Below, in pieces: positions 4,131 through 22,470 of a stretch of DNA of 64,000 bases (position 1 is the first letter of the stretch; each line of letters opens with the position of its first letter). Source of the DNA: Pseudomonas silvicola. GTDB lineage: Bacteria; Pseudomonadota; Gammaproteobacteria; Pseudomonadales; Pseudomonadaceae. Where the stretch lies: positions 7,152,501-7,216,500 of the forward strand of contig NZ_CP093280.1 of the NCBI RefSeq assembly GCF_026651855.1. The letters run 5' to 3'. A program made the position numbers and the translations under genes. The notes beneath the pieces are model-generated. The model saw only the letters and a program-made list of their open reading frames with translations. It was not told the origin of the DNA and searched no databases.

Positions 4131-5124
4131 ACGGATCAAGGACTGGGGGCTGGCACCCGACCTGGGCCAGTGCCGCCTGTGCGGCAGCAGTGCCGGCCAG
4201 CGTTATTTCTGGGCGGAAGTGTACGCCGGCTCCGGCCAGGCGCTACGCCGTTGCGGCTACTGCGCCGGGGTGTACCTGGCACCCGGCTTCACCGACGCAG
4301 GCCTGACGCGCTTCTACCAGGGCCCCTACCGCCGGCTGTTTCCCGCCGAGGTACCGTGGCGTGACAAGGCCCGCTTCTTTGCCTGGCGCGGTGACCGCGA
4401 CATCGCCCGCCAACGCCTGGGCCTGATCGAACCGGCCTTGGCAGCGGGCGCGCGGCTGTTCGAACTGGGCTCGGGGTTCGGCGCCTTTCTCGGCCAGGCC
4501 GGCCGCTCGCGGCCCGACCTGGCCCTGGTCGCCAGCGAGCCGGACAGCGCCCACCGTGGCGAGCTGCTGGACGGTGCGCCGGTACGCTTCGTCGACAACC
4601 TGCCCGCGGTGCAACCGGCCAGCGTCGACGCGGTGGTGGCCTTCCATGTGCTGGAACACCTGCCCGACCCGCTGGGTTTCTTCCAGCAGGCCGGCGAGGC
4701 CCTGCGCGAAGGTGGCCAACTGTGGGTGGAAGTACCGGACCTGATGGCCGCCTGGAATACCCGGCTGTTCGTGCACCCCGCGCACCTCAGTTATTTCTGC
4801 GCCGATGCCCTGCGGCGCCTGGCCGAGGCGTCGGGGCTGCAGGTGATCAGCTGTGGCCAGCACCCGCTGGCGGCGCTGGAAGGCACGCTGTGGTTGCATG
4901 CCCGGCGCCCTGAACGCCTGGCCGAGACGCCGGTGCGCGCCGCGGCCCAGGCCACCGTCGTGGCCGTGGACCACTGGATCGAACGCGTGGGCTGGGGCCT
5001 GCGCGACCGCCTGAAGAACTTCGGTAAACGCAGGGTCCTGGGCCTGCTGGGCGCTGGCCTGGTGGGCGAGCTGCAACGCTGGCGGCAATACCGCGCGCGC
5101 CTGCGCCAGGAGCGCACGCCATGA
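4123..5124 (+). CDS. Class I SAM-dependent methyltransferase with N-terminal zinc finger
   Basis: A 333-residue protein. Two CxxC pairs near the N-terminus (Cys17/20 and Cys44/47) form a probable zinc-binding module like that of sugar C- or O-methyltransferases. SAM-binding motif I is FELGSGFG (about residues 113-120), and FHVLEHLPDP looks like the motif II/III region of Methyltransf_11/23 enzymes. It starts 8 bases inside the amidotransferase gene and ends overlapping the next start codon (ATGA). Codons from about residue 245 onward lie inside a 643-bp tandem duplication, but this first copy of the gene is complete. The substrate is probably a nucleotide sugar or lipid-linked glycan. Confidence 0.85.
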   Translation: MPERIKDWGLAPDLGQCRLCGSSAGQRYFWAEVYAGSGQALRRCGYCAGVYLAPGFTDAGLTRFYQGPYRRLFPAEVPWRDKARFFAWRGDRDIARQRLGLIEPALAAGARLFELGSGFGAFLGQAGRSRPDLALVASEPDSAHRGELLDGAPVRFVDNLPAVQPASVDAVVAFHVLEHLPDPLGFFQQAGEALREGGQLWVEVPDLMAAWNTRLFVHPAHLSYFCADALRRLAEASGLQVISCGQHPLAALEGTLWLHARRPERLAETPVRAAAQATVVAVDHWIERVGWGLRDRLKNFGKRRVLGLLGAGLVGELQRWRQYRARLRQERTP

Positions 5125-5495
5125 GGTGGCTGGTCTTCGTATTCCTGGTGGTGTGGATACACCTGGGTGACCTGGGCACCGCCTGGCTCTACCACGGCGG
5201 CGCCTGGCCGCAGGCGGGGCATTTGCGTAACCTGCGCGACGTGCTGGCCATCGCCATCGCCGGTCTGTGCCTGGTCAGCGTGCGCCTGCCCACCCGCCTG
5301 TTGGTGCCGGTCCTGGCCTACGGCATCCTGGCGCTGGCTTACCTGGTGCTGGACCGCAGCGCGACCACCAGCGGTATTCTCCTGGGCTCGTTCGGCACCC
5401 TGCTGATTCCGATGCTGTTTTTCCTGGTGGGTTTCTACTGCGTGCGCGACCCTGCCCGCCTGCACCGCTACGGCGGGCTGCTCGCCACCCTGGCC
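4853..5495 (+). repeat. 643-bp tandem direct duplication, copy 1
   Basis: This segment is repeated head to tail in the next 643 bases with no difference seen. It covers the last 90 or so codons of the methyltransferase and the first 125 codons of the following membrane-protein gene. The 13-base sequence GTGGCCAGCACCC occurs at 4853, 5496 and 6139, exactly at the two junctions and the far edge. That is the pattern expected from a duplication arising by recombination or slippage between short homologies. Confidence 0.95.
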
Positions 5496-5657
5496 GTGGC
5501 CAGCACCCGCTGGCGGCGCTGGAAGGCACGCTGTGGTTGCATGCCCGGCGCCCTGAACGCCTGGCCGAGACGCCGGTGCGCGCCGCGGCCCAGGCCACCG
5601 TCGTGGCCGTGGACCACTGGATCGAACGCGTGGGCTGGGGCCTGCGCGACCGCCTGA
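5121..5657 (+). pseudogene. Truncated duplicate of the Wzy-like gene (5' part only)
   Basis: The first 125 codons are identical to those of the full-length gene that starts at 5764. At the duplication junction near 5496 the frame shifts into methyltransferase-derived sequence, giving about 53 unrelated arginine-rich residues before a stop. The fragment keeps the original start codon and its ATGA overlap with the methyltransferase, so it is probably still translated. The product would have only the first few membrane helices and an aberrant tail. It is best read as a by-product of the tandem duplication. Confidence 0.85.
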
Positions 5658-5767
5658 AGAACTTCGGTAAACGCAGGGTCCTGGGCCTGCTGGGCGCTGG
5701 CCTGGTGGGCGAGCTGCAACGCTGGCGGCAATACCGCGCGCGCCTGCGCCAGGAGCGCACGCCATGA
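5496..5767 (+). pseudogene. Duplicated 3' fragment of the methyltransferase gene
   Basis: This stretch repeats the codons for the last 89 or so residues of the methyltransferase, from the QHPLAALEGT segment to the final QERTP, and ends in the same ATGA overlap with the next gene. It has no SAM-binding motif and no evident start of its own. It preserves translational coupling for the intact downstream gene if ribosomes read the upstream frame. Confidence 0.85.
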
Positions 5768-6138
5768 GGTGGCTGGTCTTCGTATTCCTGGTGGTGTGGA
5801 TACACCTGGGTGACCTGGGCACCGCCTGGCTCTACCACGGCGGCGCCTGGCCGCAGGCGGGGCATTTGCGTAACCTGCGCGACGTGCTGGCCATCGCCAT
5901 CGCCGGTCTGTGCCTGGTCAGCGTGCGCCTGCCCACCCGCCTGTTGGTGCCGGTCCTGGCCTACGGCATCCTGGCGCTGGCTTACCTGGTGCTGGACCGC
6001 AGCGCGACCACCAGCGGTATTCTCCTGGGCTCGTTCGGCACCCTGCTGATTCCGATGCTGTTTTTCCTGGTGGGTTTCTACTGCGTGCGCGACCCTGCCC
6101 GCCTGCACCGCTACGGCGGGCTGCTCGCCACCCTGGCC
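5496..6138 (+). repeat. 643-bp tandem direct duplication, copy 2
   Basis: Second copy of the unit. It begins with codons matching the C-terminal part of the methyltransferase (open to a stop at 5767) and then contains the start of the intact Wzy-like gene. The unit length is not a multiple of three, so the first copy of the membrane-protein gene runs out of frame at the junction while this copy reads on correctly. Confidence 0.95.
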
Positions 6139-7053
6139 GTGGCCAGCACCCTGTTCGGGGCCTGGGAGCAGCGGCACACCGGGTTCTGGATCGACACCCT
6201 GGCATTCCCCCAGTACATGCGCGATGTCAAAGGCTTGCTGGTGGGCGCCAACCCTGACACTGGCCTGCCATGGAATTTCTACCCGGACACCGAAGCCCTG
6301 GGCCGCCGCGCCGCAGGCTTGCTGGCCGCGCCGCTCGCCCAGGGCATGTTCCTCGCCGTGGCCGCCATCACCAGCATCGCCTGGCTGGAGCGCCGCAGCC
6401 GCTGGCTGGGCCTGGCACTGTGCGCACTGCTGTTCAGCGGCATCTGGATGTCCGGCACCCGCGGCGCCATGCTGGCCGCAGGCCTGGCGCTGGTGGGCTA
6501 CATGGCCACCAGCAAGACGCTGTTTCGTGATGGCGCCTCGCGGCTGGTATTGACCCTGGGTGCGCTGCTGGCGATTGGCTGCGCCTCCTACGGCATCGTG
6601 CTGGTCAGTATCAATTTCCTCGACGGCTCTACCATTGGCCATTGGGACGCATTGCAAAAGAACATCCATGACCTGCCGCGGGTACTGCTGTGGGGTGCAG
6701 GCCTCGGCCAGCAGGGCGCGATCGCCGCCCAGCAGAGCCGCGCCACCATCGGCGGCGGCGAAGGTGCCATCTTCAGTATCGCCTTCCAGTTGGGCCTGCC
6801 CGCCGCCCTGCTGTTTCTGTGGTTCTACCTCAACTGCACCCTCGCCCTGTGGCGCAGCTACCGGCTGCACCACGACCCCATGGCCTTGGCCACCTTCTGG
6901 CTGGCCATCGGCGTGGCCACCACGCTGATCAGTTCCGAGCATGTCCTGGCCGTGTCCGGCACCGGCGCCTTCTGGCTGCTGTGCGGCGCCACGTTGCGCA
7001 GCCAACGCCCTCTCTCACCTCCTGCCCCTGAGGCCGCCCATGAACACCCCTGA
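5764..7053 (+). CDS. Polytopic membrane protein, O-antigen polymerase (Wzy)-like
   Basis: A 429-residue hydrophobic protein with about 10-11 predicted membrane segments and a larger loop in the middle (about residues 150-185). The segment SGTRGAMLAAGLAL resembles the Wzy_C region of O-antigen ligases and polymerases, and an Arg-containing loop follows later. The likely role is polymerising or transferring glycan repeat units at the periplasmic face. It is the intact copy after the tandem duplication. The start is the same ATG, with the same preceding sequence, as the truncated copy. It overlaps the following glycosyltransferase gene by 14 bases. Confidence 0.7.
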   Translation: MRWLVFVFLVVWIHLGDLGTAWLYHGGAWPQAGHLRNLRDVLAIAIAGLCLVSVRLPTRLLVPVLAYGILALAYLVLDRSATTSGILLGSFGTLLIPMLFFLVGFYCVRDPARLHRYGGLLATLAVASTLFGAWEQRHTGFWIDTLAFPQYMRDVKGLLVGANPDTGLPWNFYPDTEALGRRAAGLLAAPLAQGMFLAVAAITSIAWLERRSRWLGLALCALLFSGIWMSGTRGAMLAAGLALVGYMATSKTLFRDGASRLVLTLGALLAIGCASYGIVLVSINFLDGSTIGHWDALQKNIHDLPRVLLWGAGLGQQGAIAAQQSRATIGGGEGAIFSIAFQLGLPAALLFLWFYLNCTLALWRSYRLHHDPMALATFWLAIGVATTLISSEHVLAVSGTGAFWLLCGATLRSQRPLSPPAPEAAHEHP

Positions 7054-7819
7054 CCGCCTACGAATGGATTTCCTGGGTTGCCCCCTCGACCTGGTTCCCC
7101 CACAGGAGCTGATCGCCGCCGCGCGACGCGCGGTGGAAGGCGGCACGCGCCTGCGCCTGGAGGGGTTGAACGTGGCGAAACTGGTGGATGCGCGCGGTGA
7201 CTCGACCTTGATGGGCGCCCTGGAAGATGCCGAGCGGGTGCATATCGACGGCGCGGGCATTTCCCTGGGCCTGAAATGGCTGGGCGTGCAACCGCCGGTC
7301 CGGCGCGCTGGCATCGACCTGTTGGGCGACCTGTGCGCCATGGCCGTGGGCAGCGGCGCGTCGGTTTACCTGCTGGGCGCCCGCGCCACGGTGGTCGAAC
7401 AGATCGCCCAGTACCTGCTGGCACGCTACCCGGGGCTGAACATCGCCGGCTGGCGTGACGGCTACTTCAGCCCAGCCCAAGAACCCACCGTGATCGAGGC
7501 CATTCGCGCCAGCGGCGCCGACCTGCTGTTCATCGGCATGAGTTCGCCCAGGAAAGAAGTGCTGCTGCAACAGCACTGGCCGCACCTGGGGGTGAAAGTA
7601 GCAATGGGCGTGGGCGGCTCGTTCGATGTGCTGTCGGGGAACCTGCCCCGGGCACCGCGCTGGATGCAGAAAGCGGGCATGGAGTGGCTGTTTCGCATGG
7701 CGCTGGAACCTCGCCGGCTGCTGTGGCGCTATGTGCGAACCAACACGGCCTTCGCATTCCTGTTGATCGTCGCGCGGCTGAAAATGAAGTGGCGCATGGG
7801 CATCCGCGACAATGCGTGA
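7040..7819 (+). CDS. WecG/TagA/CpsF-family glycosyltransferase
   Basis: A 259-residue cytoplasmic enzyme of the family that adds a second sugar (for example ManNAc or ManNAcA) to undecaprenyl-diphosphate-linked GlcNAc. Family features are GLNVAKLVDA near the N-terminus, HIDGAGISLGLKWLG (about residues 74-88, with the conserved acidic residue) and IGMSSPRKEVLLQQHW (about 171-186). The start MNTPDRL is preferred to an upstream in-frame start, which would read through the previous gene's coding sequence. The C-terminal basic stretch is common in membrane-associated members. It overlaps both neighbours, in keeping with translational coupling. Confidence 0.9.
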   Translation: MNTPDRLRMDFLGCPLDLVPPQELIAAARRAVEGGTRLRLEGLNVAKLVDARGDSTLMGALEDAERVHIDGAGISLGLKWLGVQPPVRRAGIDLLGDLCAMAVGSGASVYLLGARATVVEQIAQYLLARYPGLNIAGWRDGYFSPAQEPTVIEAIRASGADLLFIGMSSPRKEVLLQQHWPHLGVKVAMGVGGSFDVLSGNLPRAPRWMQKAGMEWLFRMALEPRRLLWRYVRTNTAFAFLLIVARLKMKWRMGIRDNA

Positions 7820-9062: not shown

Positions 9063-10267
9063 TACGCTGGGCGCACCGTGCGCAAGGGCTGGCCACACGC
9101 GGCTTTCCGTTCATGATACGGCGCTCCACGCGTACCCCCATGGGGCGCCTGCGCGCGATGGCCAGGGCTGAGTGGTTCGCCAGGCTGCCGCTCGGCCAAC
9201 GCTGGTTCTTGTGGCTGGGCATGACGGTGGCGTGGCCGCTGGGCGCCCTGCTGCAGACTGCCCGACAGCTACGAATGGACCCGCTGCGCCAGCAGCCACG
9301 GCTGGCCCGACTGCGCCACGGGGCGCGGATGCTGACGATGGCCTTGCTGCATAACGTGCCGCCGCTGGAGTTCAGTGCCTACCGCCTGTGGGAACCCGGG
9401 CGCAGGGCCCTGGCAGGCGACTTTCTGTACTGGCCTGAACTGGGCGTGCTTAATGCCCTCAACCGCCATCGCGGCGCCGTGCAGGACGATGTGCAGGACA
9501 AAGCCCGTTTCGCCGAGCTGTGTACCACCCATGGCCTGCCTTGCATTCCCACCCTCGCCGTATTTACCCAAGGTCGCCAGCCAGTACCGGCAGCCCCCTT
9601 CGTGCCAGACCAGGCCCGCCTGTGGGTCAAGGACCTGGCCGGCAGCCAGGGCAGCGGGGCCGAGCATTGGCAATTGCACGCCGGGCAGTATCAAGACCGC
9701 CAAGGGCGGCGCCTGACACCTGTGGGCCTTGCCGAACGCTGGCAGGGACAAGACTGTATCGTGCAGCCCTGGGTGCCGAACCACCCGGAACTGGCCGCCC
9801 TGTCCAACGGCCCGTTGCTGGCAGTGCGCATCATCACCGGCCTGGACCGCACGGGCCAGGTGCACATCATTGCCACGCTGCTGGCACTGCCCTGGGGCCG
9901 ACCCGGTGAGCGCCAGCCGAAAATCCTGTGCGCCATTGATACAGCCACGGGGCGCCTGACCCGTGCGCTACTGGCGGGCACCACGCCCGTCGCGGTTCAT
10001 CCGGATAGCAACGCGCCCCTCGTCGATACCCTTATCCCCCATTGGCCATCCTGCCTGGAACTGGTTCAACGCGCCCATGCCGGAGCATTCGACCGTTTTG
10101 TATTCCTGGGCTGGGACGTGGCCGTGACCGACGACGGCCCCCTGCTGATCGAGGCCAACACCGGCTGGGGTGCCCTGCATCACCAGAGGCTCGATGGCAG
10201 GCCGCTGGGCGACACCCCATTCGCCACCATTGCCCTGGAGCAGCTGGAGCACGCCGCATGCGATTGA
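9053..10267 (+). CDS. Sugar-transfer-associated ATP-grasp protein
   Basis: A 404-residue protein resembling the ATPgrasp_ST family, ATP-grasp enzymes repeatedly found in polysaccharide clusters. The segments RLWVKDLAGSQGSGA (about residues 187-201), CIVQPWVPNHPEL and, near the C-terminus, FLGWDVAVTDDGPLLIEANTGWG fit the ATP- and metal-binding parts of the fold. ATP-grasp enzymes ligate a carboxylate to an amine or thiol through an acyl phosphate. The substrate of this subfamily is not known. Positioned between a glycan ligase and the lasso-cyclase-like gene, with 10-base overlaps on both sides, it could serve either pathway. The N-terminal 80 residues are basic and may be membrane-associated. 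Confidence 0.75.
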   Translation: MALIRWAHRAQGLATRGFPFMIRRSTRTPMGRLRAMARAEWFARLPLGQRWFLWLGMTVAWPLGALLQTARQLRMDPLRQQPRLARLRHGARMLTMALLHNVPPLEFSAYRLWEPGRRALAGDFLYWPELGVLNALNRHRGAVQDDVQDKARFAELCTTHGLPCIPTLAVFTQGRQPVPAAPFVPDQARLWVKDLAGSQGSGAEHWQLHAGQYQDRQGRRLTPVGLAERWQGQDCIVQPWVPNHPELAALSNGPLLAVRIITGLDRTGQVHIIATLLALPWGRPGERQPKILCAIDTATGRLTRALLAGTTPVAVHPDSNAPLVDTLIPHWPSCLELVQRAHAGAFDRFVFLGWDVAVTDDGPLLIEANTGWGALHHQRLDGRPLGDTPFATIALEQLEHAACD

Positions 10268-12114
10268 TCTGTGGCTTCACCCACATGAATGGCCAGGCAG
10301 CCGAGGCCGAGCGGCTGGAGCGGATGATCCAAGCCATGATCGAGCCAGGCCTGAGCCCCCACATCGCCCGCCATCTCGACGGCCCAACGGCGCTGGCCAT
10401 GCTGGATTTCAGCCAGGTGGCAGGTGAATTGCCGCAAGGCGCCGACGGCCTGGTACTGGCCGCCGACGCACAGATCCACGAGCCACGCGGCGACAGCGAG
10501 GCGTTGCTGCTTGCCGCGCTGCAAACCCAGCGGCCTGAAGCCGTCGGCCAGTTGATCGGTGACTTCGGCGCGGCCGCCTGGCACCCCGGTTCCGGGAGCC
10601 TGATCTGCGTGCGCGATGCCATGGGTGTCCGGCCGTTTTTCTTCATCCACCAGCCCGGCGAGTGCTTCGCCTTTGCTTCATTGCCCAGGGGGCTGCATGC
10701 CGCCGCGTTCATCCCCCGGGCGCTGGATCACGATTATCTGCTGGCTGAACTGGCGGGCCATGGCCTGGGGCCGGAGCGTTCGCTGTTTCAAGGGATCGAA
10801 CGCCTGGCGCCCGGGCAATGGTTACGGGTGTCCCCCCAAGGGGTGGAACGCCGGTGGCACTGGCGGCTGGACCGGACCGAGGGCGGACGCCACCGCGGCA
10901 CCCCGCAACAGGCCGCCGCGCAACTGGCCACGCTGGTCACCGAAGCCGTGCGTTGCCGCCTGCCTGCCACCGGCGACGCCGCCGCACACCTCAGCGGTGG
11001 CCTGGACTCATCTTCGCTGGCGATCATCGCCGCACGCCTGCTGGGCGAAACACAACGCTCGTTGCGGGGGTATTCGTTCCTGCCTTCATACATCGAGGGT
11101 GTGAGGCTTGAAGGTGAAGGCCCCTACGTCGACGCCGCCCTGGGCCAGGCGCCCAACATCCTGTCACAGCCCATTCGCATCACCGATGCGGCCGCCTACA
11201 TCCTGCCGCAGATGGACCCAGACCAACTGGTACCTTGCGACCCTGCGTTTCCGGAAATGCAGGTATGCGCCGATACGGCGCGCCACGGCATCACGACTAT
11301 CCTGTCGGGCTGGGGCGGGGACGAAGGCCCGACCTTCAACGGCAGGGGGGCACTGGCCGAGGCATTCCTGCACGGACGCTGGAGGTACCTGGCTGGGGAG
11401 TTCAAGGCCCTGGCCCGGGTACGCGGCATGAACACGCTGGCCATCCTGCGCGCCGAACTGCTGCCCTACCTGCTGCCTGAGCGCTTTTACCGCTGGTGGG
11501 AACACTGGGGGAAAGGTACGCCTTATGCCCGTCACAGGGCCGCCAAACAGCCCCTGCTCAAGGCAGGGCGGGGAATCGGTCAGCCGTCAGGCGCGTTGAC
11601 GGCCAGTGCCCTGGAAAACCGCTGGCAACTCCTGAATGCCCATCATCTGGCCAAGCGCTGCGAGCATTGGGCGCTGCTGGGGGCCAGGCATGGGGTGGCA
11701 TTTGCCTATCCCCTGCGCGACCGCAGGGTGGTGGAGTTCGCGTGGTCTTTGCCCAGCACGATGTTTCTGCGCGGCGGCTGGAAACGCCGGGTGTTTCGCG
11801 ATGCAATGGCCGCCGTACTGCCGGCGCAGATTCGCTGGCGCCACACCAAGCTCACGCCCTTTCCCGAAGCCCTGTGGCTGCAAACCCTGCAGCGTGAAGC
11901 GCTGCAACGTCACATGGCTGAAATCGCCGACCACGCACAGGCCGCCGCATTGTTTGACCTGGACGCGATCGCGCAGCGCATCGCCAGCCTGCCGCCAGCC
12001 GAGCAGGCCGCGCGGCTTGCCCTCGCCGAAGAGAACAGCCGCATGGCCAGTGCTGGCGCCGGTGTGCCTCTAAGCATCCTGCATGCCACGGTCTACCTCA
12101 AACAGCACCCCTGA
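10258..12114 (+). CDS. Lasso-peptide cyclase-like asparagine synthetase homologue (C protein)
   Basis: A 618-residue AsnB homologue with a degenerate glutaminase half. It has MRLICG instead of Cys at position 2, the NGEIYN motif is missing, and GDSEALL replaces GDTE. The synthetase half is intact: PP-loop HLSGGLDSSS (about residues 244-253) and LSGWGGDEG (about 349-357), with the GWGGDEG form common in lasso cyclases. Such enzymes adenylate an Asp/Glu side chain and let the Gly1 amine close the macrolactam. It overlaps the ATP-grasp gene by 10 bases, so it is transcribed with the glycan operon. It converges on a small precursor gene 16 bases away. The assignment to that precursor is inference. 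Confidence 0.78.
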   Translation: MRLICGFTHMNGQAAEAERLERMIQAMIEPGLSPHIARHLDGPTALAMLDFSQVAGELPQGADGLVLAADAQIHEPRGDSEALLLAALQTQRPEAVGQLIGDFGAAAWHPGSGSLICVRDAMGVRPFFFIHQPGECFAFASLPRGLHAAAFIPRALDHDYLLAELAGHGLGPERSLFQGIERLAPGQWLRVSPQGVERRWHWRLDRTEGGRHRGTPQQAAAQLATLVTEAVRCRLPATGDAAAHLSGGLDSSSLAIIAARLLGETQRSLRGYSFLPSYIEGVRLEGEGPYVDAALGQAPNILSQPIRITDAAAYILPQMDPDQLVPCDPAFPEMQVCADTARHGITTILSGWGGDEGPTFNGRGALAEAFLHGRWRYLAGEFKALARVRGMNTLAILRAELLPYLLPERFYRWWEHWGKGTPYARHRAAKQPLLKAGRGIGQPSGALTASALENRWQLLNAHHLAKRCEHWALLGARHGVAFAYPLRDRRVVEFAWSLPSTMFLRGGWKRRVFRDAMAAVLPAQIRWRHTKLTPFPEALWLQTLQREALQRHMAEIADHAQAAALFDLDAIAQRIASLPPAEQAARLALAEENSRMASAGAGVPLSILHATVYLKQHP

Positions 12115-12130
12115 CGGCAGGCCCCTCGTT

Positions 12131-12295
12131 TCAGGAAGCCGGGCCGGCGCTGAACGTCGTTTCGTTGGGAAAGCCGAACTTGGCGCCCTCGGTCAGGCTT
12201 TGAATGCTCTGGTCCTGCACGGTCGGCGTGACCCATGGCTTCCTGGGGGCGAGGGTTTCGTCTACCACGGTTTCAGCGGGAGTGTCGGAATGCAC
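12131..12295 (-). CDS. Predicted lasso-peptide precursor (A peptide)
   Basis: A 54-residue peptide starting at a GTG that has an AAGGA Shine-Dalgarno (12304-12308) eight bases upstream. The frame is open further upstream, but that extension lacks a comparable site. The 36-residue leader contains RKPWVTPTV, the kind of Lys-Pro-aromatic/Pro recognition motif bound by PqqD-like RRE proteins, and ends in Leu-Thr-Glu. Thr therefore occupies the conserved -2 position. The predicted core GAKFGFPNETTFSAGPAS has Gly at 1 and Glu at 9, which fits a nine-residue macrolactam ring with a nine-residue tail. The C-terminal residue is Ser, a possible kinase target. B1, B2, kinase and cyclase homologues are all nearby. 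Confidence 0.82.
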   Translation of the reverse strand: MHSDTPAETVVDETLAPRKPWVTPTVQDQSIQSLTEGAKFGFPNETTFSAGPAS

Positions 12296-12303
12296 GAGCT
12301 CTA

Positions 12304-12308
12304 TCCTT
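12304..12308 (-). promoter_or_regulatory. Shine-Dalgarno that fixes the precursor GTG start
   Basis: On the minus strand AAGGA lies eight bases before the GTG at 12295. No other in-frame start nearby has a match this good, so it decides the leader length (36 residues). Confidence 0.7.
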
Positions 12309-12319
12309 GGGCAAACACG

Positions 12320-12338
12320 GTCGCGGCCTATCCGCGAC
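12320..12338 (-). promoter_or_regulatory. Stem-loop in the 5' leader of the lasso precursor gene
   Basis: A perfect 7-bp inverted repeat, GTCGCGG and CCGCGAC, with a 5-base loop lies just upstream of the ribosome-binding site of the precursor gene. There is no T-run after it in the minus direction, so it looks more like an mRNA-stabilising or processing hairpin than a terminator. Confidence 0.5.
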
Positions 12339-12418
12339 TGAAGAAGCGCCACGCTAACTGATTGCAATTGGCTATTCAAGCAGGCCGCCGCGGCACGCTG
12401 GCCACGGCGCCCCGCACC

Positions 12419-12997
12419 TCAGGCCGGCGAGGGATAAACCCCCTCCAGGCACACGTAGTAACCCATGGTCAGGAACGGCTGGCGGTTTTCGTGCGCCTGC
12501 ACCTGGTTGTTGACCCCGCCTGCATAAGCGATCGCCTGCGGATGCAACGTGGTGTTGAAATGCTGGCCGGTCAGGTAAGCCGGCATGACCGACCCGGCAT
12601 TGCCATTGAGTACCAGCGGCCGTCCCAGCCACGACGTGCCGGCCGCAGGCGTCGCCAGGGTGGCCTCGGCGACCGTGGCCAGTTTGGCCAGTTGCAGCGT
12701 CAGCGTGTGCACGTGCGCCGGCAACTGCGCCACGCTCAGCGCTACGCCCGCGCTACCATACTGACTACCCAGCGTACGTGACGTCAGGCCCGGGCCAGTA
12801 CCGGTGCCCAGTACTGCGTACGCCTGCAGGTTGGGGATCTGGAAATTCGACGTGCCGTCGCCGCCAAAGGCGATACCCAGTACCGAATACAGTACCGAAT
12901 ACTGCGAAATCGCCAGGGCCCTCCCGTCGCAGAGTATCCAGCCTTGCGGCTCGAAACCAAAGGCGAATGCCCTCACTTCACCAATGAATCCATCCAT
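12419..12997 (-). CDS. Tail-Collar domain protein (type 1, downstream triplet)
   Basis: A 192-residue protein of the phage Tail Collar / 'microcystin-dependent protein' family. It has the family pattern GEVRAFAFGFEPQGWILCDGR at the N-terminus, LYSVLGIAFGG, FQIPNLQ, a central LPAHVH segment and the ending HENRQPFLTMGYYVC near the C-terminus. A Shine-Dalgarno AGGAG precedes the ATG. It is the last of three consecutive collar genes and lies 123 bases upstream of the lasso precursor. Its closest partner in the window is the 191-residue protein at 17479, which shares the ending YPSP. The role of free-standing collar proteins is not established. Confidence 0.88.
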   Translation of the reverse strand: MDGFIGEVRAFAFGFEPQGWILCDGRALAISQYSVLYSVLGIAFGGDGTSNFQIPNLQAYAVLGTGTGPGLTSRTLGSQYGSAGVALSVAQLPAHVHTLTLQLAKLATVAEATLATPAAGTSWLGRPLVLNGNAGSVMPAYLTGQHFNTTLHPQAIAYAGGVNNQVQAHENRQPFLTMGYYVCLEGVYPSPA

Positions 12998-13011
12998 CTG
13001 CTGAACTCCTG

Positions 13012-13554
13012 TTACGGCCGGCTCGGATAAATGCCCGACAGTGAAATGATGTAATTCAACGCAACCACAGGCATGAGGTTCTCGTGCGCCTGATTCTGCC
13101 CGGCAAGGCCCAGGGTACCCGGAATGGTGACGGCGGCAGTCGCCTCACTCGCGGCCTTGCTGCCCTCCACATACAGCACGGCTGGGCTGGCGACAGCAGC
13201 GAAGGTCACGCCTGAACCCGCGGTGGCCGTGGTGCCCGTGGTACCCGCCGTGGTCAGGCTGTGGGTATGAGGTGGCAGGTTGGGCTCAAGCAAGGTCACC
13301 GTTTCGGTACCGCCCAGGCTACCCAGCACCTTGGGGCTCAGGCCAGTACCCGTGCCTTGGCCCACCGGAACGCGGCCGCGCAGGTCGGGCAAGCCGAAGG
13401 TGGTGATGCCATCGCCGCCGTAGACCGTGCCCAGCAAGGAGAACAGCACTTCGTTCTGGGCAATGTTCACCAGGCTTCCATCACACAGATGCCAGTTCAC
13501 GGGCACGCGAGCACCCGCGAACAACCGAACCTCACCAACGTATGGATCAGACAT
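13012..13554 (-). CDS. Tail-Collar domain protein (type 2, downstream triplet)
   Basis: A 180-residue family member beginning MSDPYVGEVRLFAG, with WHLCDGS, LLGTVYGGDG, FGLPDLRGRVPVG and LPPHTHSL. It ends in ALNYIISLSGIYPSRP. The threonine- and alanine-rich central segment (about residues 100-150) is low in complexity, as in other members. A good ribosome-binding site (GGAGGG) lies upstream. It is separated by 14 and 24 bases from its collar neighbours, so the three are one transcription unit. It pairs with the 188-residue protein at 18071, which begins MSDPYIGEIRLFAG. Confidence 0.88.
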   Translation of the reverse strand: MSDPYVGEVRLFAGARVPVNWHLCDGSLVNIAQNEVLFSLLGTVYGGDGITTFGLPDLRGRVPVGQGTGTGLSPKVLGSLGGTETVTLLEPNLPPHTHSLTTAGTTGTTATAGSGVTFAAVASPAVLYVEGSKAASEATAAVTIPGTLGLAGQNQAHENLMPVVALNYIISLSGIYPSRP

Positions 13555-13578
13555 TCATGTTCCCTCCTGTGGAAATGA

Positions 13579-14112
13579 TCATGACCGTGGCGGATAAAGA
13601 CCTTGCACGGCGATGCAGGGGTTGAGCACCTGGTAGGGCTGCAGATTGTTGTGCGGCGTACCGGTGCCACTGGAGGACACGCTGCCGGGGTTGAGGGGCA
13701 CGGGGGACGCGCCTGGCGCGGCGAACGCCGAAGGGGCTGTGATGGAACCGCTGCCCCCCACCGATGCGATCGTGCCCGCCGCCGGGCTTGCCGCCGTGCC
13801 AACCGTGCTGGCCACGTTCAAGGAATGGCTGTGGGGCGGCATCTGCGCCGTGGTCAGCGTTACCGTTTCGACCCCGGCAACCTGGCCGAGGCTGTAGTTG
13901 GGGTCGCTCAGGCTGCGACTGACCACGGTACGGCCACGCAGGTCGGGAAGCTGGAAGGTGGTTGAGCCGTTGCCACCGTAGGAGGTGCCGAGCAAGGCGA
14001 ACAGGGCCTGGTTGGTACTGATCGATAGCGTTCGGCCGTCGCAGGGCAGCCACCCTTGCGGAGCGAAGTCAAAGGGGAACCAACGAATCTCACCCAAAAA
14101 GAAATCTGACAT
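13579..14112 (-). CDS. Tail-Collar domain protein (type 3, downstream triplet)
   Basis: A 177-residue protein beginning MSDFFLGEIRWFPFDFAPQG, with WLPCDGRTL, LLGTSYGGNG, FQLPDLRGRT and MPPHSHSL. It ends in CIAVQGLYPPRS. A strong AAGGAG Shine-Dalgarno lies six bases before the ATG. It is the first gene of the downstream triplet, after a 211-base gap from the B2 gene that probably holds its promoter. Its paralogue in the other triplet is the protein at 18669 (MSDAFLGEIRWFAFGFAPQG), so the two triplets are in the same type order. Confidence 0.88.
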   Translation of the reverse strand: MSDFFLGEIRWFPFDFAPQGWLPCDGRTLSISTNQALFALLGTSYGGNGSTTFQLPDLRGRTVVSRSLSDPNYSLGQVAGVETVTLTTAQMPPHSHSLNVASTVGTAASPAAGTIASVGGSGSITAPSAFAAPGASPVPLNPGSVSSSGTGTPHNNLQPYQVLNPCIAVQGLYPPRS

Positions 14113-14323
14113 GCTTCACTCCTTTCCCTGGAAATGGCTGGACGTGTCGAATGCAGTGAAAACAGCTAGCTGCCATTATGGTGTAGCGGATTTTTGGCCG
14201 CCGTCCAGCGCCATCGTACCGTTGGCGCCCCACCCCCTTCGCGTTGCCATGACGGCCGACACGACCCCACCCGTGCGCAGTACAGCTCGCTGACCAGCCA
14301 GCGCACGCAGAAGACAGCTGCCG
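14113..14323. other. 211-base gap between B2 gene and collar triplet
   Basis: No open frame with a plausible ribosome-binding site was found on either strand. Apart from the AAGGAG site of the downstream collar gene nothing specific is visible. The size suggests a promoter for the downstream collar triplet and precursor gene. Confidence 0.4.
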
Positions 14324-14770
14324 CTAAGGGGGTGGAGTGAAGCCGGCCAGTTCAGTGTAGCCTGGGCGAAACGCCATGCCGATCACCCCTACGCCGCTGG
14401 CTGTGAGCCACGCATGGGCTTTCATCTGTCGGCCTTCGGCGAGGGCCATCCCCAGGTGAAGCGTGGACACGATGCCGCGCCGTTGAAGCATGGCCTTGGC
14501 GGCGAGCGCCTGGGGCAGACACGCAAGACGCAGGGGTAGACGACGCGCAGCACGCTCCACCGCTCGACCCACCTGGGGCAGCAAGGGCATCGCCTGAATG
14601 CCTGGGTCGACCGCCTGCGCGGGGCCACCTGTGGCGCCGCAACGCGCCGCGATCCAGCGAAATGGCAAAACCTTGAGCGCGACTGCTGCCAGCACCAGCC
14701 AGACGGCTGCCTCGGCCGTCAGGCGCCGCGTGGCCCACGGCCCGGCCCGGAAGCTACGCCAACGGCTCAT
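14324..14770 (-). CDS. Lasso-peptide B2 leader protease (transglutaminase-like)
   Basis: A 148-residue protein of the Transglut_core3 family (lasso biosynthesis B2), which cleaves the leader from the precursor. The catalytic-type Cys lies in LRLACLPQALA (Cys84) and the catalytic His in KAHAWLTASGVGVIG (His119). The pattern C..(Q/R)A followed by AHAWL is diagnostic for the family. Start MSRWRS overlaps the end of the B1 gene by 17 bases. A longer in-frame extension reads through B1 coding sequence and is rejected. Residues 20-37 are hydrophobic, a feature of some B2 proteins. The third catalytic residue (Asp) is not clear by eye. Confidence 0.88.
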   Translation of the reverse strand: MSRWRSFRAGPWATRRLTAEAAVWLVLAAVALKVLPFRWIAARCGATGGPAQAVDPGIQAMPLLPQVGRAVERAARRLPLRLACLPQALAAKAMLQRRGIVSTLHLGMALAEGRQMKAHAWLTASGVGVIGMAFRPGYTELAGFTPPP

Positions 14771-15089
14771 CGGCGACACTGACCAACCCACGCTGCTGCA
14801 AGGCCAGGAGAAAAGCCTGCACTTCCTGGCTCGCCACCGCGGGAGCCACCTCGTACTCGGCGACGAGGGATTGCACCAGGCTCTGGACGCTGGTCGGCGT
14901 CGCCAGCAGTTCCCAGATGCGCGCTCCCACCTCATTGAGGTTGAAATAACGGCCCCGTTCGACACTCATCATCAACAGTTCATCGCCCGAGGCTGCCGCC
15001 AACAGGCCGTCGTTGCGCTTGTAAACACCTTGCCAAAGCCGTGCTGCGTCCATCCACTCATTCTCCGTTGGTCTATCGCTGATCCGCAT
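14754..15089 (-). CDS. PqqD-like RiPP recognition element protein (lasso B1)
   Basis: A 111-residue PqqD-family protein that should bind the precursor leader and present it to the B2 protease and cyclase. The core pattern SVERGRYFNLNEVGARIWELL (split around residues 42-62) and AFLLALQQRGLV (about 92-103) match the RRE fold of lasso B1 proteins. The start codon overlaps the sulfotransferase stop (TGATG), giving one-base coupling. The ~25 residues before the RRE core are an extension of unknown role. Binding would be expected at the RKPWVTPTV part of the precursor leader; this is inferred from family behaviour. Confidence 0.9.
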   Translation of the reverse strand: MRISDRPTENEWMDAARLWQGVYKRNDGLLAAASGDELLMMSVERGRYFNLNEVGARIWELLATPTSVQSLVQSLVAEYEVAPAVASQEVQAFLLALQQRGLVSVADEPLA

Positions 15090-15934
15090 CACAGGTAACC
15101 CAGGCGCGTCATGACCTGCCGATTCGCCTCGACAATGCGCGCCTGCTGTTGCGCCGACAAGGCCTCGCGCCACCCTCCCGCGCGTCCCAAGCGGAAAAAC
15201 GGGGCGGTCGACCTGGGCATCCGCTCCTTGAAACCGTTTGCCTGTTCCTGACGTCGCACCTGGTCAAAACTGGCGAAGTCCACGGCACGTTGCAATTCAC
15301 CGGCTGGGGCATCAAGGCCGAGAAAGTGCGCTACCGCCGCGAAAGCACCCGACGTATCGGCCAACAGATCCTCGTAACGCACGCAGTGCACAGGCATGTC
15401 TGCCTGGTCGAGCCAACCCCTGACATGCTCGCTCCAGGATGACCATGCTTCGTCAAACCGCCGGGTGTGACACCCAGGCTCCTGACGGTGGCGCATGTCG
15501 CGGTTCAAGAGCTCGATGGCTTCGTCCACAGACCCGCCCACATGGTGGGCAAGGGAAATGACCACGTCACGAGGGTCGCGTACCACGTAAACCGCCGACA
15601 TACCCGGGGCAGCACCGAAAATACCTTGCCCGGCATCGTTACGGCGGTAGTGGTCATGGGTTTTGGTAAAACCACGCTCCGTCGCCTGGGCGATGATGCA
15701 CTCAGCCCAGCCGGGGCGTAGCCGCTCGGTCTCGCTTCGGGTCAGCAGGCTGGTGTCGATCAGCGTCATGTCCTCGACGACACTTCGCAGCATCAGCCTG
15801 TGGGAGGGCAACTCGATTTGGTTGATCGGGACCGGACGATCCTGAGCGACGATCAAATTGGCTAGCAACAGGCGCATCCAGGTGTTGCCTGACTTCGGAT
15901 ACGAGGCCAGCCAGACCGCGCCTTTACCAGTCAT
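15089..15934 (-). CDS. Sulfotransferase (PAPS-dependent, Sulfotransfer_1)
   Basis: A 281-residue enzyme with the 5'-phosphosulfate loop WLASYPKSGNTWMR (about residues 8-21) and the 3'-phosphate segment YVVRDPRDVVISLAHH (about 115-130). The C-terminal RLGRAGGWREAL resembles the RxGxxGxW motif of the family. It would transfer sulfate from PAPS to a hydroxyl or amine. The start MTGKGAVW is preferred; upstream in-frame starts read through kinase codons. It sits between the kinase (11-base overlap) and B1 (one-base overlap), so it is an integral gene of the lasso unit. The substrate may be the peptide or a glycan. Confidence 0.88.
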   Translation of the reverse strand: MTGKGAVWLASYPKSGNTWMRLLLANLIVAQDRPVPINQIELPSHRLMLRSVVEDMTLIDTSLLTRSETERLRPGWAECIIAQATERGFTKTHDHYRRNDAGQGIFGAAPGMSAVYVVRDPRDVVISLAHHVGGSVDEAIELLNRDMRHRQEPGCHTRRFDEAWSSWSEHVRGWLDQADMPVHCVRYEDLLADTSGAFAAVAHFLGLDAPAGELQRAVDFASFDQVRRQEQANGFKERMPRSTAPFFRLGRAGGWREALSAQQQARIVEANRQVMTRLGYL

Positions 15935-16841
15935 CGCTGCCCTCCAACCGGTCAAGCACCAGGCGGACATTCTCGTGCATGGCCCCAAGTTCGTTGCGCC
16001 GGTCAAAGCGGAACACCCGTACTTGCCCCAACAGCGCGGCTACCTGAAAAAACAGAGGCACGTCACGCCCCATGCGGGCGGCGGCCGTGCGGCGGAAAAT
16101 ATCCTGGCGCAGCAGGGGCGCCGCGTCGGCGCTGGTCAGGCGCGACAGCCCCGGGGGCATGCCCAGCGACGCTTCGCGCAGCACGATGATGGCCTTGAGT
16201 GGCACCTTCGCGGGGACGGCGACGACACCGGGGTCGACATGGTATTTGCGCAGGGTAGCGCGCACCGCCTGGCCCCGGCGATCGTCCAGCGCAAGGTGCT
16301 CGACGGCATCGGACCACAAGCGGTGCTGGCGCCCGTCAGGGGTGATGGCGGGTGTACCATCGGCCTCGAAACGCACCACCGCCATGTCATCGCAGACAAA
16401 GCCGCCACCTGCCGAGCAGAGCGCCGCGGCAAGGGTCGACTTGCCCACCCCGCTTGGCCCGCAAATAGCCACGGCATGACCGTTGAAGGCCACGGCAGAG
16501 GCATGCAGCACCAGCAACTCGCGCTGGTGCAGCAGCGCCCCGAACCCAGTGCTCAGCAGGAAAGGCACCGCCTCGGCGGCGCAGGTATCGCCTTCCGGAG
16601 CGAACTGGATCAGCCGACCCTCGGTTACCTGGCAGCGGACGATGCCGGGCACGCGAAACAGCAGGTTGGCGCCCTCGACATGCCAGTTCAGACCGCTGCC
16701 GACATCCCCTTCGAACGGTAGCGCCACCGCTGCGCGGCGGATGAATACATCGGCCGATTCGACAGGCGCCACCGCCTTGACCACACCGGGAAGTTCTACC
16801 TCGGAACGAACGGCCAGGCCGCAGATAAGATAGTCAGGCAA
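15924..16841 (-). CDS. HPr kinase-like peptide kinase (lasso-associated)
   Basis: A 305-residue P-loop protein of the HPr kinase/phosphorylase-like group found in RiPP clusters. The Walker A motif is GPSGVGKST (about residues 128-136) and a DD pair follows in FVCDDMAVV (about 148-156). LHASAVAFNG before the P-loop is typical of the group. Related enzymes phosphorylate the C-terminal serine of lasso precursors (paeninodin type), and the predicted precursor here ends in Ser. The start is a TTG with AAGG six bases upstream. No ATG in frame fits better. It leads the compact kinase-sulfotransferase-B1-B2 unit. Confidence 0.85.
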   Translation of the reverse strand: MPDYLICGLAVRSEVELPGVVKAVAPVESADVFIRRAAVALPFEGDVGSGLNWHVEGANLLFRVPGIVRCQVTEGRLIQFAPEGDTCAAEAVPFLLSTGFGALLHQRELLVLHASAVAFNGHAVAICGPSGVGKSTLAAALCSAGGGFVCDDMAVVRFEADGTPAITPDGRQHRLWSDAVEHLALDDRRGQAVRATLRKYHVDPGVVAVPAKVPLKAIIVLREASLGMPPGLSRLTSADAAPLLRQDIFRRTAAARMGRDVPLFFQVAALLGQVRVFRFDRRNELGAMHENVRLVLDRLEGSDDW

Positions 16842-16957
16842 GGCAAACCTTCATGGAATGGGCGCTGGAAAATATCAGGGCACGTTAAGCCCACGATCCT
16901 TGTGCAATCGAAGCGCTAGCCTACCTAATTGCCTTTTGCCATACAACAAGGACACCG

Positions 16958-17482
16958 TCAGGCAGGGGGTGCCCAGGCCATGTGCAGGTAGGGTGGCTGT
17001 TGGCCGCTTTCGACGAAGCCCAGGCGTCGGTACAAGCGTTGTGCCGGGTTGGTCGCCGCGACGCTCAGGGTGACGCGCTTGCCCGCTGTCAGCGCTTGCT
17101 CCTGCATTGCGATCAGCAGCGCCGTACCGAGGCCCGCGCCGCGGCATGATGGCATGAGCGACAGGTCGACCACATGAATGTCCGCGTTGCTGCAACGCAG
17201 GTACAAGCGCCCCATGGGCTCCTGCCCCAACACAATGAGCAAGCGTTCCGAGGCCGAACATAACGTGGCGTATTGCAGGCTTTGCAGTTCGAACTGGCTG
17301 CGCAGGAACTGCTCGCGCAGGGCCGGCGGCCACGCGCTCAAGTCCATTTCCTGCTGGCGTACCGAGGCAAACAGGCGCTGCAGAAACGGCTTGTCGTCGG
17401 CGCGCTCTTCTCGAAGCCGCACCCCCCGTGCTGCCCAGGCGTCAGGCAGCACGGGGACCGGCGTGGTGCTTGTCCCACTCAT
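16958..17482 (-). CDS. GNAT-family N-acetyltransferase
   Basis: A 174-residue protein with the acetyl-CoA-binding pattern LMPSCRGAGLGTALLIAMQ (R/Q-x-x-G-x-G/A at about residues 120-128), preceded by an IHVVDLSLMP strand and followed by NPAQRLYRRLGFVE. Its ATG overlaps the stop of the upstream collar gene (ATGA), so it is translated with the collar triplet. A gap of about 116 bases separates it from the kinase gene. The target is unknown. Acetylation of the single Lys in the predicted lasso core is one possibility; small-molecule or N-terminal acetylation is equally open. Confidence 0.87.
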   Translation of the reverse strand: MSGTSTTPVPVLPDAWAARGVRLREERADDKPFLQRLFASVRQQEMDLSAWPPALREQFLRSQFELQSLQYATLCSASERLLIVLGQEPMGRLYLRCSNADIHVVDLSLMPSCRGAGLGTALLIAMQEQALTAGKRVTLSVAATNPAQRLYRRLGFVESGQQPPYLHMAWAPPA

Positions 17483-18054
17483 CCCGGGCTCGGGTACTGC
17501 CCGTCGGCGCAGATGTAATACCCCATCGCCAGGTACGGTTGGCGGTTTTCATGGGGCAGAACCGTACCAGCCGAAGCACCGGTATGGCCGACCGACTGGG
17601 CCAGCTGAGTGTTGAAACTGGCCCCCTGCGCATAAGACGGCACCACATACCCCGAATCGCTGCCTTCCAATATCACCGGGCGGGCCAGCCAGGAGTCCGT
17701 GGCGGGGGCCGCCAAGGCAAATTGCGAGGCGGTTGACAGTGTTGGCAGCTGCACGGTCAGGTCGTGCTGGTGAGGCGGCACCTGGTTCGCGGTCAGGGCC
17801 ACCGAGACGCTTCCGGCCTTGCCCGCCAATGGCCTGTTGGTCAGGCCTGTGCCTGCCCCCACCCCCATCACCGCCTGGCTTCGGAGGTCAGGCAGGTTGA
17901 ACTGGTCGTTACCTGTGCCGCCATAGGTCTGGCCAATCACCGCGAACAGCAACTGATATTGCTGAGCGTGCAACAACTGCCCAGCGCATAGCAGCCAGTT
18001 TTCGGGTGCGTAACCGAACGCAAAGGCTCGAACTTCACCAACGTATGCATCCAT
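17479..18054 (-). CDS. Tail-Collar domain protein (type 1, upstream triplet)
   Basis: A 191-residue collar-family protein: MDAYVGEVRAFAFGYAPENW, LFAVIGQTYGG, FNLPDLRSQAVMG, VPPHQHDL and the ending HENRQPYLAMGYYIC...YPSPG. It matches the type 1 protein of the other triplet along its length, including the segment DSWLARPVILEG against TSWLGRPLVLNG. It is translationally coupled to the GNAT gene. It differs from types 2 and 3 by its longer C-terminal region, which may form the variable tip. Confidence 0.88.
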   Translation of the reverse strand: MDAYVGEVRAFAFGYAPENWLLCAGQLLHAQQYQLLFAVIGQTYGGTGNDQFNLPDLRSQAVMGVGAGTGLTNRPLAGKAGSVSVALTANQVPPHQHDLTVQLPTLSTASQFALAAPATDSWLARPVILEGSDSGYVVPSYAQGASFNTQLAQSVGHTGASAGTVLPHENRQPYLAMGYYICADGQYPSPG

Positions 18055-18070
18055 TCTTCAGCCCATCCCT

Positions 18071-18637
18071 TCAGGGCCTGACCGGGTATAGCCCGACCAG
18101 CGCGATAATGTGGTTCAACGCCATGGTCGGCATCATGTTGTCGTGAGGCTGCGCGGTCGTGCTGGACGCGATGGTTCCTGTCGCGGTTTTGACGGCCTTG
18201 GCCTGCGACGGCACTCCGGCGGCACTCACGTATGAGCGGACTTGCCCGGTGGTGTTGGCGAACGTGACCGCCGTTCCCGGCGTAGACGTAGTGGCCGGCC
18301 CATTGCCCGCGTACAGCGCATGGGTGTGGGGCGGCAGGTGGGGGCCCTCCAGCGTCACGGTCTCGGCGCCGCCGCTACTGCCCAATGTGCGGGGTGTCAG
18401 GCTGGCTGCAGGGTTGGTGTCGGGTACCACGCCTGTTCCCGTGCCGACCGGGACACGCCCGCGAAGGTCAGGCAACGCGAACGACACCGGCGCGGTGCCG
18501 CCGTAGACATTGCCCAACAGGGCGTACAGCGCCTGATACTGAGCAACCGGTAGCACGGTTCCATCACAGACGTGCCAGCCCTGGGGGGCCGTTTTTCCGG
18601 CGAACAGGCGAATCTCACCGATATAGGGGTCGGACAT
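18071..18637 (-). CDS. Tail-Collar domain protein (type 2, upstream triplet)
   Basis: A 188-residue member: MSDPYIGEIRLFAGKTAPQGW, LLGNVYGG, FALPDLRGRVPVGTG, LPPHTHALYAG, ending in LNHIIALVGLYPVRP. Pairs with the 180-residue type 2 protein of the other triplet. Spacing to the flanking collar genes is 16 and 31 bases, so the triplet is one unit. The central part is rich in Thr, Ala and Ser, as expected for a surface-exposed trimeric module. Confidence 0.88.
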   Translation of the reverse strand: MSDPYIGEIRLFAGKTAPQGWHVCDGTVLPVAQYQALYALLGNVYGGTAPVSFALPDLRGRVPVGTGTGVVPDTNPAASLTPRTLGSSGGAETVTLEGPHLPPHTHALYAGNGPATTSTPGTAVTFANTTGQVRSYVSAAGVPSQAKAVKTATGTIASSTTAQPHDNMMPTMALNHIIALVGLYPVRP

Positions 18638-18668
18638 TCATGTTCCCTCATGCGAATTGAACAACAGC

Positions 18669-19205
18669 CTAGACAGAGTTGAGCGGGTAGATGCCCTCAA
18701 CCACCATGCAAGGGGTCAATACCAGGAATGGCTGCATGTTGGCATGTGGGGTCGCGGTACCGGCCAGAGCGACACTACCGGCATTGAGCTGGACCCCCGT
18801 GCCGTTGGCAGCCCCGAAGACGGCGGGGGCCGTGGGGACCTGCGTGCTGGTGCCCAGCGAGGCGATGGCATTGCCGACAGGGCTGGGTGCCGTGCCCACG
18901 AGGCTGCTGGCATTCACCGCATGGGTGTGCGAGGGCATTTGAGGCGTGGTCAAGCTCACCGTTTCCGTACCGGCGAGGGTACCAGCCCGGTCATTGTCAC
19001 CCGTATCGTTGGCCCCCACCAGCGTGCGGCCCCGCAGGTCAGGTAAATTGAAGGAAGTCGTGTTCCCCCCGTACGTGTTCTTTATCAGCGAGTACAACGC
19101 TGGGTAAGCATTGACCGCCAGCGAGCGACCATCGCAGGGCAACCACCCCTGCGGCGCAAAACCAAAAGCAAACCAGCGGATTTCTCCCAGAAACGCGTCT
19201 GACAT
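18669..19205 (-). CDS. Tail-Collar domain protein (type 3, upstream triplet)
   Basis: A 178-residue member: MSDAFLGEIRWFAFGFAPQGW, LPCDGRSLAV, LIKNTYGGNTTSFNLPDLRGRT, MPSHTHAV, ending in CMVVEGIYPLNSV. It is the first gene of the upstream triplet, preceded by an AAGGAG Shine-Dalgarno and a 151-base gap that probably holds the promoter. It pairs with the type 3 protein of the downstream triplet. No phage structural, lysis or integrase genes are nearby, so this is a chromosomal collar locus and not a prophage remnant. Confidence 0.88.
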   Translation of the reverse strand: MSDAFLGEIRWFAFGFAPQGWLPCDGRSLAVNAYPALYSLIKNTYGGNTTSFNLPDLRGRTLVGANDTGDNDRAGTLAGTETVSLTTPQMPSHTHAVNASSLVGTAPSPVGNAIASLGTSTQVPTAPAVFGAANGTGVQLNAGSVALAGTATPHANMQPFLVLTPCMVVEGIYPLNSV

Positions 19206-19356
19206 TTATTGCTCCTTCGAGGGCGTACCTGCCATGTTCGACGTCGAGCGTGTCACCTGAACCCGTCGAGTCGAGGTACTGTTTAATCTTTCCCTCGGTG
19301 CCGCGCAATCCCCCTCCCCCGCTATTTTTCGCGAGTCGAAGGCGTCATGATCTGGG

Positions 19357-22337: not shown

Positions 22338-22410
22338 GGGGTTCTCGTGCGAGGGGCCAGCAGGTTAAAGTAAACAACAACGATTCGCTTTTGCGCATTG
22401 TGCGATAACC

Positions 22411-22433
22411 CTTCTCAAGATCTTGTTAAGAAG
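22411..22433 (+). promoter_or_regulatory. Candidate operator in the receptor/two-component divergent region
   Basis: An imperfect inverted repeat, CTTCTCAAGATCTTG followed by TTAAGAAG, lies between the divergent receptor and response-regulator genes. Its position suits a binding site for the adjacent OmpR-type regulator. Assignment is by position only. Confidence 0.35.
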
Positions 22434-22470
22434 ATTTCACCTTCGACACACTTATTACATGTGGCCCGCC

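Follow-up and report, generated by a model that had tools for sequence, protein, structure and literature searches.

A probable kinase-type lasso peptide precursor of Pseudomonas silvicola lies beside tail-collar genes and belongs to a rare gene set with an ATP-grasp ligase and a sulfotransferase

We analyzed a stretch of 64,000 nucleotides, here called the window, from Pseudomonas silvicola (assembly GCF_026651855.1, contig NZ_CP093280.1, positions 7,152,501 to 7,216,500). It contains a short open reading frame (ORF) that a first-pass annotation had described as the precursor of a lasso peptide. The frame, precursor A, runs on the minus strand from 12295 to 12131, starts with GTG and translates, as that annotation had stated, into 54 amino acids (VHSDTPAETVVDETLAPRKPWVTPTVQDQSIQSLTEGAKFGFPNETTFSAGPAS). 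It consists of a leader of 36 amino acids (12188-12295), an 18-residue core, GAKFGFPNETTFSAGPAS (12134-12187), and a stop codon (12131-12133). A Shine-Dalgarno-type stretch, AAGGA, is located 8 bases 5' of the GTG. A longer frame is open to a TTG at 12379 (82 amino acids), but the GTG start is favoured because a 36-residue leader fits the leaders of 34-45 amino acids in the relatives, the start codons of which were chosen by us. The core has Gly1, Glu9, Phe12 and a 9-residue tail, and its computed [M+H]+ is 1767.834 as a lactam and 1847.80 with a phosphate, since phosphorylation of the C-terminal Ser would add 79.966. These values reproduce the previously calculated mass of about 1767.83 and increment of 79.97.

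The genes for a cyclase (C), two processing proteins (B1 and B2) and a kinase (K), which had been placed beside the precursor, are all present, but not in so simple an arrangement: the genes for precursor A and C are convergent, 16 bp apart, and three collar-domain genes (12419-14112) stand between precursor A and B2. This trio had been missed, as had a sulfotransferase (ST), an ATP-grasp ligase and the conserved C-terminal Ser as a candidate site for the kinase. B2 (14324..14770, minus strand, ORF open to 14965) is a transglutaminase-like leader peptidase that scores above the cut-off of the lasso B2 model NF033537 (75.3 vs 33) and has its Cys and His kept in 5/5 aligned sequences. B1 (14754..15089, minus strand) was recognized from profile and structure-sequence matches as a PqqD-type recognition element (RRE) for ribosomally synthesized and post-translationally modified peptides (RiPPs); it is a relative of TbiB1 and TfuB1, with a match to TbiB1 (5v1u) at 1e-10, and falls slightly under its own NCBIfam cut-off (77.9 vs 80). 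ST (15089..15934, minus strand, ORF open to 16006) is a sulfotransferase of the 3'-phosphoadenosine 5'-phosphosulfate (PAPS) type and matches enzymes of the Teg12/StaL type. The PAPS motifs YPKSG and RDPRDV are present in the seven full-length members of eight aligned sequences. The product of K (15924..16841, minus strand) is an HPr-kinase-like peptide kinase with a motif (H, GxxGxGKS, DD) that is complete in 8/8 aligned sequences.

On the plus strand, the ATP-grasp ligase gene (PF14397; 9053..10267) overlaps the start of C. The predicted model of the ligase has a mean local confidence (pLDDT) of 74.8, and its fold matches to RimK, LysX, Ddl and PsnB tie within about 1.6 Z, many ATP-grasp families being tied; its profile gave no match at E<=1 among the PDB sequences. 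C itself (10258..12114, plus strand) has an asparagine synthase fold and, judged from profile matches and a tree, is a probable lasso-type macrolactam cyclase. Its best NCBIfam match is the lasso cyclase model NF033535 (212.9 bits), which is also the best match of the full-length cyclases of the related loci L014-L019 (198-316 bits) and of the first piece of the cyclase of L020 (141.7 bits). The latter gene, from Methylomonas fluvii, is split across two frames (9944-11886 of that locus). As a control, a polysaccharide-type asparagine synthase at 2073-4130 of the window matched the asparagine synthase model TIGR01536 best. The control begins with MCG, whereas C begins with MRLI.G and has no Cys at position 2.

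The pair of cyclase and precursor was first recognized on a plasmid of Hyphomicrobiales UR115. A genome scan with a single cyclase sequence gave 26 pattern matches and no relatives, and a query built from an alignment of two cyclases gave 18 loci from GTDB genomes. The ATP-grasp ligase, C, B1, the sulfotransferase, the kinase and the precursor co-occur in seven loci: the window, Methylobacter (L014), Burkholderiales (L015), Sphingomonas (L016), L017 (the same plasmid as L013), a member of the Alphaproteobacteria (L018) and Methylomonas (L020). When 25 cyclases were placed in a tree, those linked to an ATP-grasp ligase, seven in all, fell on one side of a branch (support 100/99), with their hosts mixed across bacterial classes. 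The cyclase of a Bryobacteraceae contig of 8.5 kb (L019) stands next to this group (100/100). The contig carries C, K, B1, B2 and a truncated ST, the gene upstream of C being B1 and not an ATP-grasp ligase, and no precursor was found in it. The precursor was found in 0/143 other near relatives at E<=0.01, the cyclase profile matched 0/397 other genomes of the phylum at E<=1e-100, and a search with the stretch from C to precursor A gave no nucleotide matches in plasmids. Because the cyclases group across classes and the precursor was absent from the 143 near relatives, the sequence comparisons suggest that the gene set has likely spread horizontally. The set, carrying the ATP-grasp ligase and the sulfotransferase, appears to be rare and mobile. 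The source assembly (8.65 Mb, with an estimated contamination of 8%) is bigger than the 20 genomes of the same genus that were listed. In a 16S comparison with named plasmid records, a collection from which close relatives may be missing, Acinetobacter records (89%) were the top-ranked named ones among the 8 matches listed, and five records in the 90-95% band fell outside that list.

A profile hidden Markov model (HMM) built from the six precursors of the other genomes recovered the frame in the window with E=2.2e-11 and 39.6 bits. The second-best frame in the window scored 5.3 bits, and the top score in the background, consisting of the reversed window and five mononucleotide shuffles, was 8.2 bits. 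Judged from these scores, precursor A is not a chance ORF, and that explanation was rejected.

Comparison of the seven precursors showed which positions are kept. The leader motif W-x-x-P-x-[IV] at -16 to -11 is found in 7/7, as are DQ at -9/-8, Ile(-6) and Thr(-2), and the distance from W(-16) to Thr(-2) is constant throughout. This finding, together with the RRE of B1, agrees with the proposal that the leader is suited to a PqqD-type RRE. The leaders of L016, L018 and L020 have a second W-x-x-P in tandem further upstream, which looks like a duplicated RRE site. All seven cores end with Ser and contain a Lys at residue 1, 2 or 3, and none has a Tyr. Glu9 is present in six of the seven (L014 instead has E10/D11) and Gly1 in five, with Lys in L015 and Ser in L018. 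The first-pass annotation had named loss of Gly1, Glu9 and Thr(-2) in orthologous loci as evidence against its claim; of these, Thr(-2) and, with one exception, Glu9 are conserved. Thus, in the seven sequences compared, the family holds firmly to Thr(-2) and to Ser as the last residue, but not to Gly1 (5/7).

The proposed transcript start near 12340 was not borne out: a scan with the sigma-70 consensus, the only promoter search made, detected no such site in 12000-17600, and in L014 the stop codon of the adjacent collar gene, Mdp1, overlaps the start codon of the precursor. No RNA families were detected in the window.

Based on homology, synteny and motif conservation, the interpretation of the frame as a lasso-class precursor with an RRE, a leader peptidase, a cyclase and a kinase is supported, whereas a threaded fold and a separate promoter are conjectural and Gly1 is not a constant feature. 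We consider it probable that precursor A is processed to a macrolactam peptide of the lasso class, and of the type with an HprK kinase. Since B1, B2, a kinase of the HprK type and a cyclase resembling those of lasso clusters are all present, the best interpretation of the product is a macrolactam of the lasso class whose C-terminal Ser is phosphorylated. Such phosphorylation is likely by analogy, since reviews describe how HprK-type kinases phosphorylate lasso precursors at their C-terminal Ser (PMC9266682, PMC8498205). By inference from the known families, B1 would bind the leader via WxxPxV and present it, and K would phosphorylate Ser18 of the linear precursor before folding. B2 would then cleave after Glu(-1), as family membership and motifs suggest, and C would adenylate Glu9 and join it to Gly1 as a lactam, with the tail perhaps enclosed by the ring. 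Less certainly, ST might sulfate a hydroxyl, no Tyr being present in any of the seven cores, and the ATP-grasp enzyme might attach an amino acid or an amide to one of the peptide's carboxylates.

Several observations weigh against this interpretation, in addition to the departures at Gly1 and Glu9. The score of C is far under the curated cut-off of NF033535 (525), as are those of seven relatives' and three outgroup cyclases under the same cut-off. B2 is absent near the cluster in three of the seven loci (L016-L018), although each of these genomes has a B2 elsewhere, and a scan of the window genes between 1 and 25.2 kb revealed no ABC exporter. Furthermore, an HprK-RRE pair also occurs in a RiPP family that is not of the lasso type (PMC13381572), and a characterized kinase of this type is able to modify Ser3 instead (PMC10368454).

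The tails of L016, L017, L018 and L020, of 7 residues and with no bulky plug residue (e.g. ASPGTGS), bear on the threading itself. A bulky residue locks the tail of a threaded lasso, and tails of this kind would suit an unthreaded lariat, in which the same enzymes would close the ring between Gly1 and Glu9 but leave the phosphorylated tail free. It also speaks for a lariat that the kinases of known systems act before folding (PMC9266682, PMC8498205). The core in the window, with Phe12 and nine tail residues, fits this less well; moreover, the cyclase appears to belong to the lasso family and a modified Ser could itself act as a plug. We regard a lariat as a possible but less favoured outcome; it overlaps with the interpretation as a lasso-class macrolactam, which leaves threading open.

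A different role for the ligase would be that it, and not only C, makes the decisive bond, either as a graspetide-like cross-link that joins Glu9 to the Lys conserved at core residue 1, 2 or 3, or by addition of a residue at a carboxylate. However, in L023, which is outside the clade, a candidate core (7307-7474 of that locus) also begins with Lys and no ATP-grasp gene was detected, and the sister cyclase of L019 has B1 in the place of the ligase. The pLDDT of the ligase model is only 74.8, and PF14397 is not known to be a graspetide ligase family. We therefore find a decisive ATP-grasp bond rather improbable. It could also be argued that the short ORF arose by chance and that the asparagine synthase, the ATP-grasp ligase and the sulfotransferase serve the adjoining polysaccharide locus, given that an epimerase, a WecG-type glycosyltransferase and an O-antigen-ligase-type protein are encoded upstream in the window and that the clusters of L014, L015 and L020 likewise lie among polysaccharide genes. 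Six other loci, however, have the precursor in a conserved position and with a conserved sequence, and the peptide cluster is present in L016-L018, where only one weak match to the polysaccharide genes of the window was obtained (the epimerase, in L016). Together with the HMM scores, this leaves next to no probability for a chance frame and favours the lasso-class precursor.

The collar genes encode tail-collar proteins (PF07484) that resemble T4 gp12 and are, by family matches, Mdp1 (12419..12997), the immediate neighbour of precursor A, Mdp2 (13012..13554) and Mdp3 (13579..14112), all on the minus strand. An H-x-H motif is invariant in the aligned Mdp proteins. The trio adjoins the precursor in the window, in Methylobacter and in Burkholderiales, and L014 and L015 retain the gene order Mdp3-Mdp2-Mdp1-A despite an otherwise different cluster layout. 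In the Burkholderiales locus, an ABC transporter and a PF14907 nucleotidyltransferase are located near the trio (16844-19752 of that locus), as in clusters of the pseudomycoidin type. Collar genes were found in 6/18 loci from the two-cyclase search and in 2/7 kinase loci other than that of the window, with one gene in each and a recognizable precursor in neither; in a class sample, 13/228 other genomes carry a collar gene anywhere. In the seven loci where both were found, the precursor is the neighbour of a collar gene, at distances from overlap to 212 bp and in varying orientations, the precursors outside the clade being candidates chosen by motif. Two observations speak against a fixed link: the regions fetched for four of the seven clade members (L016, L017, L018 and L020) lack a collar gene, and in the class sample kinase and cyclase genes were present in only one of ten fetched regions around collar matches (three further genomes with matches lay outside these ten).

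A second, diverged collar trio is located at 17479..19205 on the minus strand (17479-18054, 18071-18637 and 18669-19205), together with a gene for a GNAT acetyltransferase (16958..17482, minus strand), both upstream of the kinase (16958-19205). GNAT genes accompany collar genes elsewhere too, including places with no detected RiPP genes (a trio in L071 and a single gene in L076). Beside the second trio are genes for a Sel1-repeat protein, a TonB-dependent receptor and a two-component system (19357-24412).

In its wider surroundings, the cluster adjoins genes of the polysaccharide type. L020 has the WecG-type gene (61%) and a polymerase-like gene (47%) in common with the window, and none of the window's genes that were tested is shared by L014 or L015. 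An exact tandem duplication with a period of 643 is present at 4853-6151, where 4853-5508 is identical to 5496-6151; it gives a second copy of the final part of a methyltransferase gene and of the first part of a gene for a membrane protein, and may be a recent duplication or an assembly artefact. The collar trio and the polysaccharide locus suggest a surface context, and the product probably acts outside the cell. We also considered a more specific and, in our view, unlikely scheme. In such a subclass of lasso-like peptides, the finished macrolactam would be further ligated by the ATP-grasp enzyme and sulfated. It would be deployed on the cell surface alongside a gp12-like collar knob built as a heterotrimer, and its phosphorylated C-terminal Ser might anchor it to exopolysaccharide. 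The block of trio and precursor would then be a module for surface display or recognition and not the source of a secreted antibiotic.

Outside the clade, no convincing precursor emerged among the small ORFs that lie directly 5' of the kinase gene in outgroup loci. Other candidates were picked by a motif scan, which also returned obvious false matches, and by hand. A terminal Ser is present in seven of twelve such candidates (L021, L022, two in L023, L025, L026 and L027) and absent from one in L023, L028, two in L031 and L086. The kinase-type clusters L022, L025, L027, L026 and L023 have short Ser-ending candidate cores, e.g. AGGAVSADQDPNQPS, which are adjoined by collar genes in all of these but L023. 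L025 and L027 belong to a single metagenome-assembled genome, as two contigs broken at a contig end.

Lasso clusters of the kinase type are already known. The paeninodin type (PadeA/K/B1/B2/C; SyanA/K) has the discrete B1 and B2, the HprK-like kinase and the C-terminal Ser of the precursor in common with the window, which differs in the added ATP-grasp ligase and sulfotransferase, the 18-residue core, the collar trio and the lack of an exporter gene found beside the cluster. Sulfotransferase genes are reported from some lasso clusters of Firmicutes (PMC8498205). Pseudomycoidin (psm) shares the kinase acting on the C-terminal Ser; a PF14907 nucleotidyltransferase is nearby in both L015 and L020, but none is present among the window genes scanned. 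The bsf cluster of Bradymonas shares the kinase, B1, B2, C and a Gram-negative host, but BsfK modifies Ser3, the leader has Ile(-2) and the core ends with Asp, as opposed to Thr(-2) and a terminal Ser in the window (PMC10368454). The lpp RiPP family has an HprK-like kinase and a discrete RRE in common with the window, but its described set (A, K, B, S, D, N and a signal-peptidase-like enzyme) includes no macrolactam synthase, whereas the window has B2 and C (PMC13381572). Pseudomonassin is also a lasso peptide from Pseudomonas, with the genes pdnABCD and a predicted mass of 1740.906, and the main text of its report mentions no kinase (PMC10609385). A lasso cyclase and an ATP-grasp ligase act on one peptide in an engineered lasso-graspetide chimera, but this is man-made from two pathways, whereas the loci described here are natural and pair the cyclase with an ATP-grasp enzyme from a different family (PMC13003496). 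T4 gp12 and other tail-collar proteins share the collar domain with the Mdp proteins, which here form a free-standing bacterial trio of about 180 amino acids each beside RiPP genes. Among the matches listed, no literature linked lasso-type precursors to tail-collar trios or natural lasso clusters to an ATP-grasp ligase, and the clade linked to ATP-grasp and collar genes appears to be a novel form of such clusters.

Thus, a rare and probably horizontally spread clade is added to the kinase-type lasso peptides. The clade brings an ATP-grasp ligase and a sulfotransferase into a lasso-type context and ties precursors to proteins that resemble phage tail tips, and both links provide testable leads on the purpose of phosphorylated peptides.
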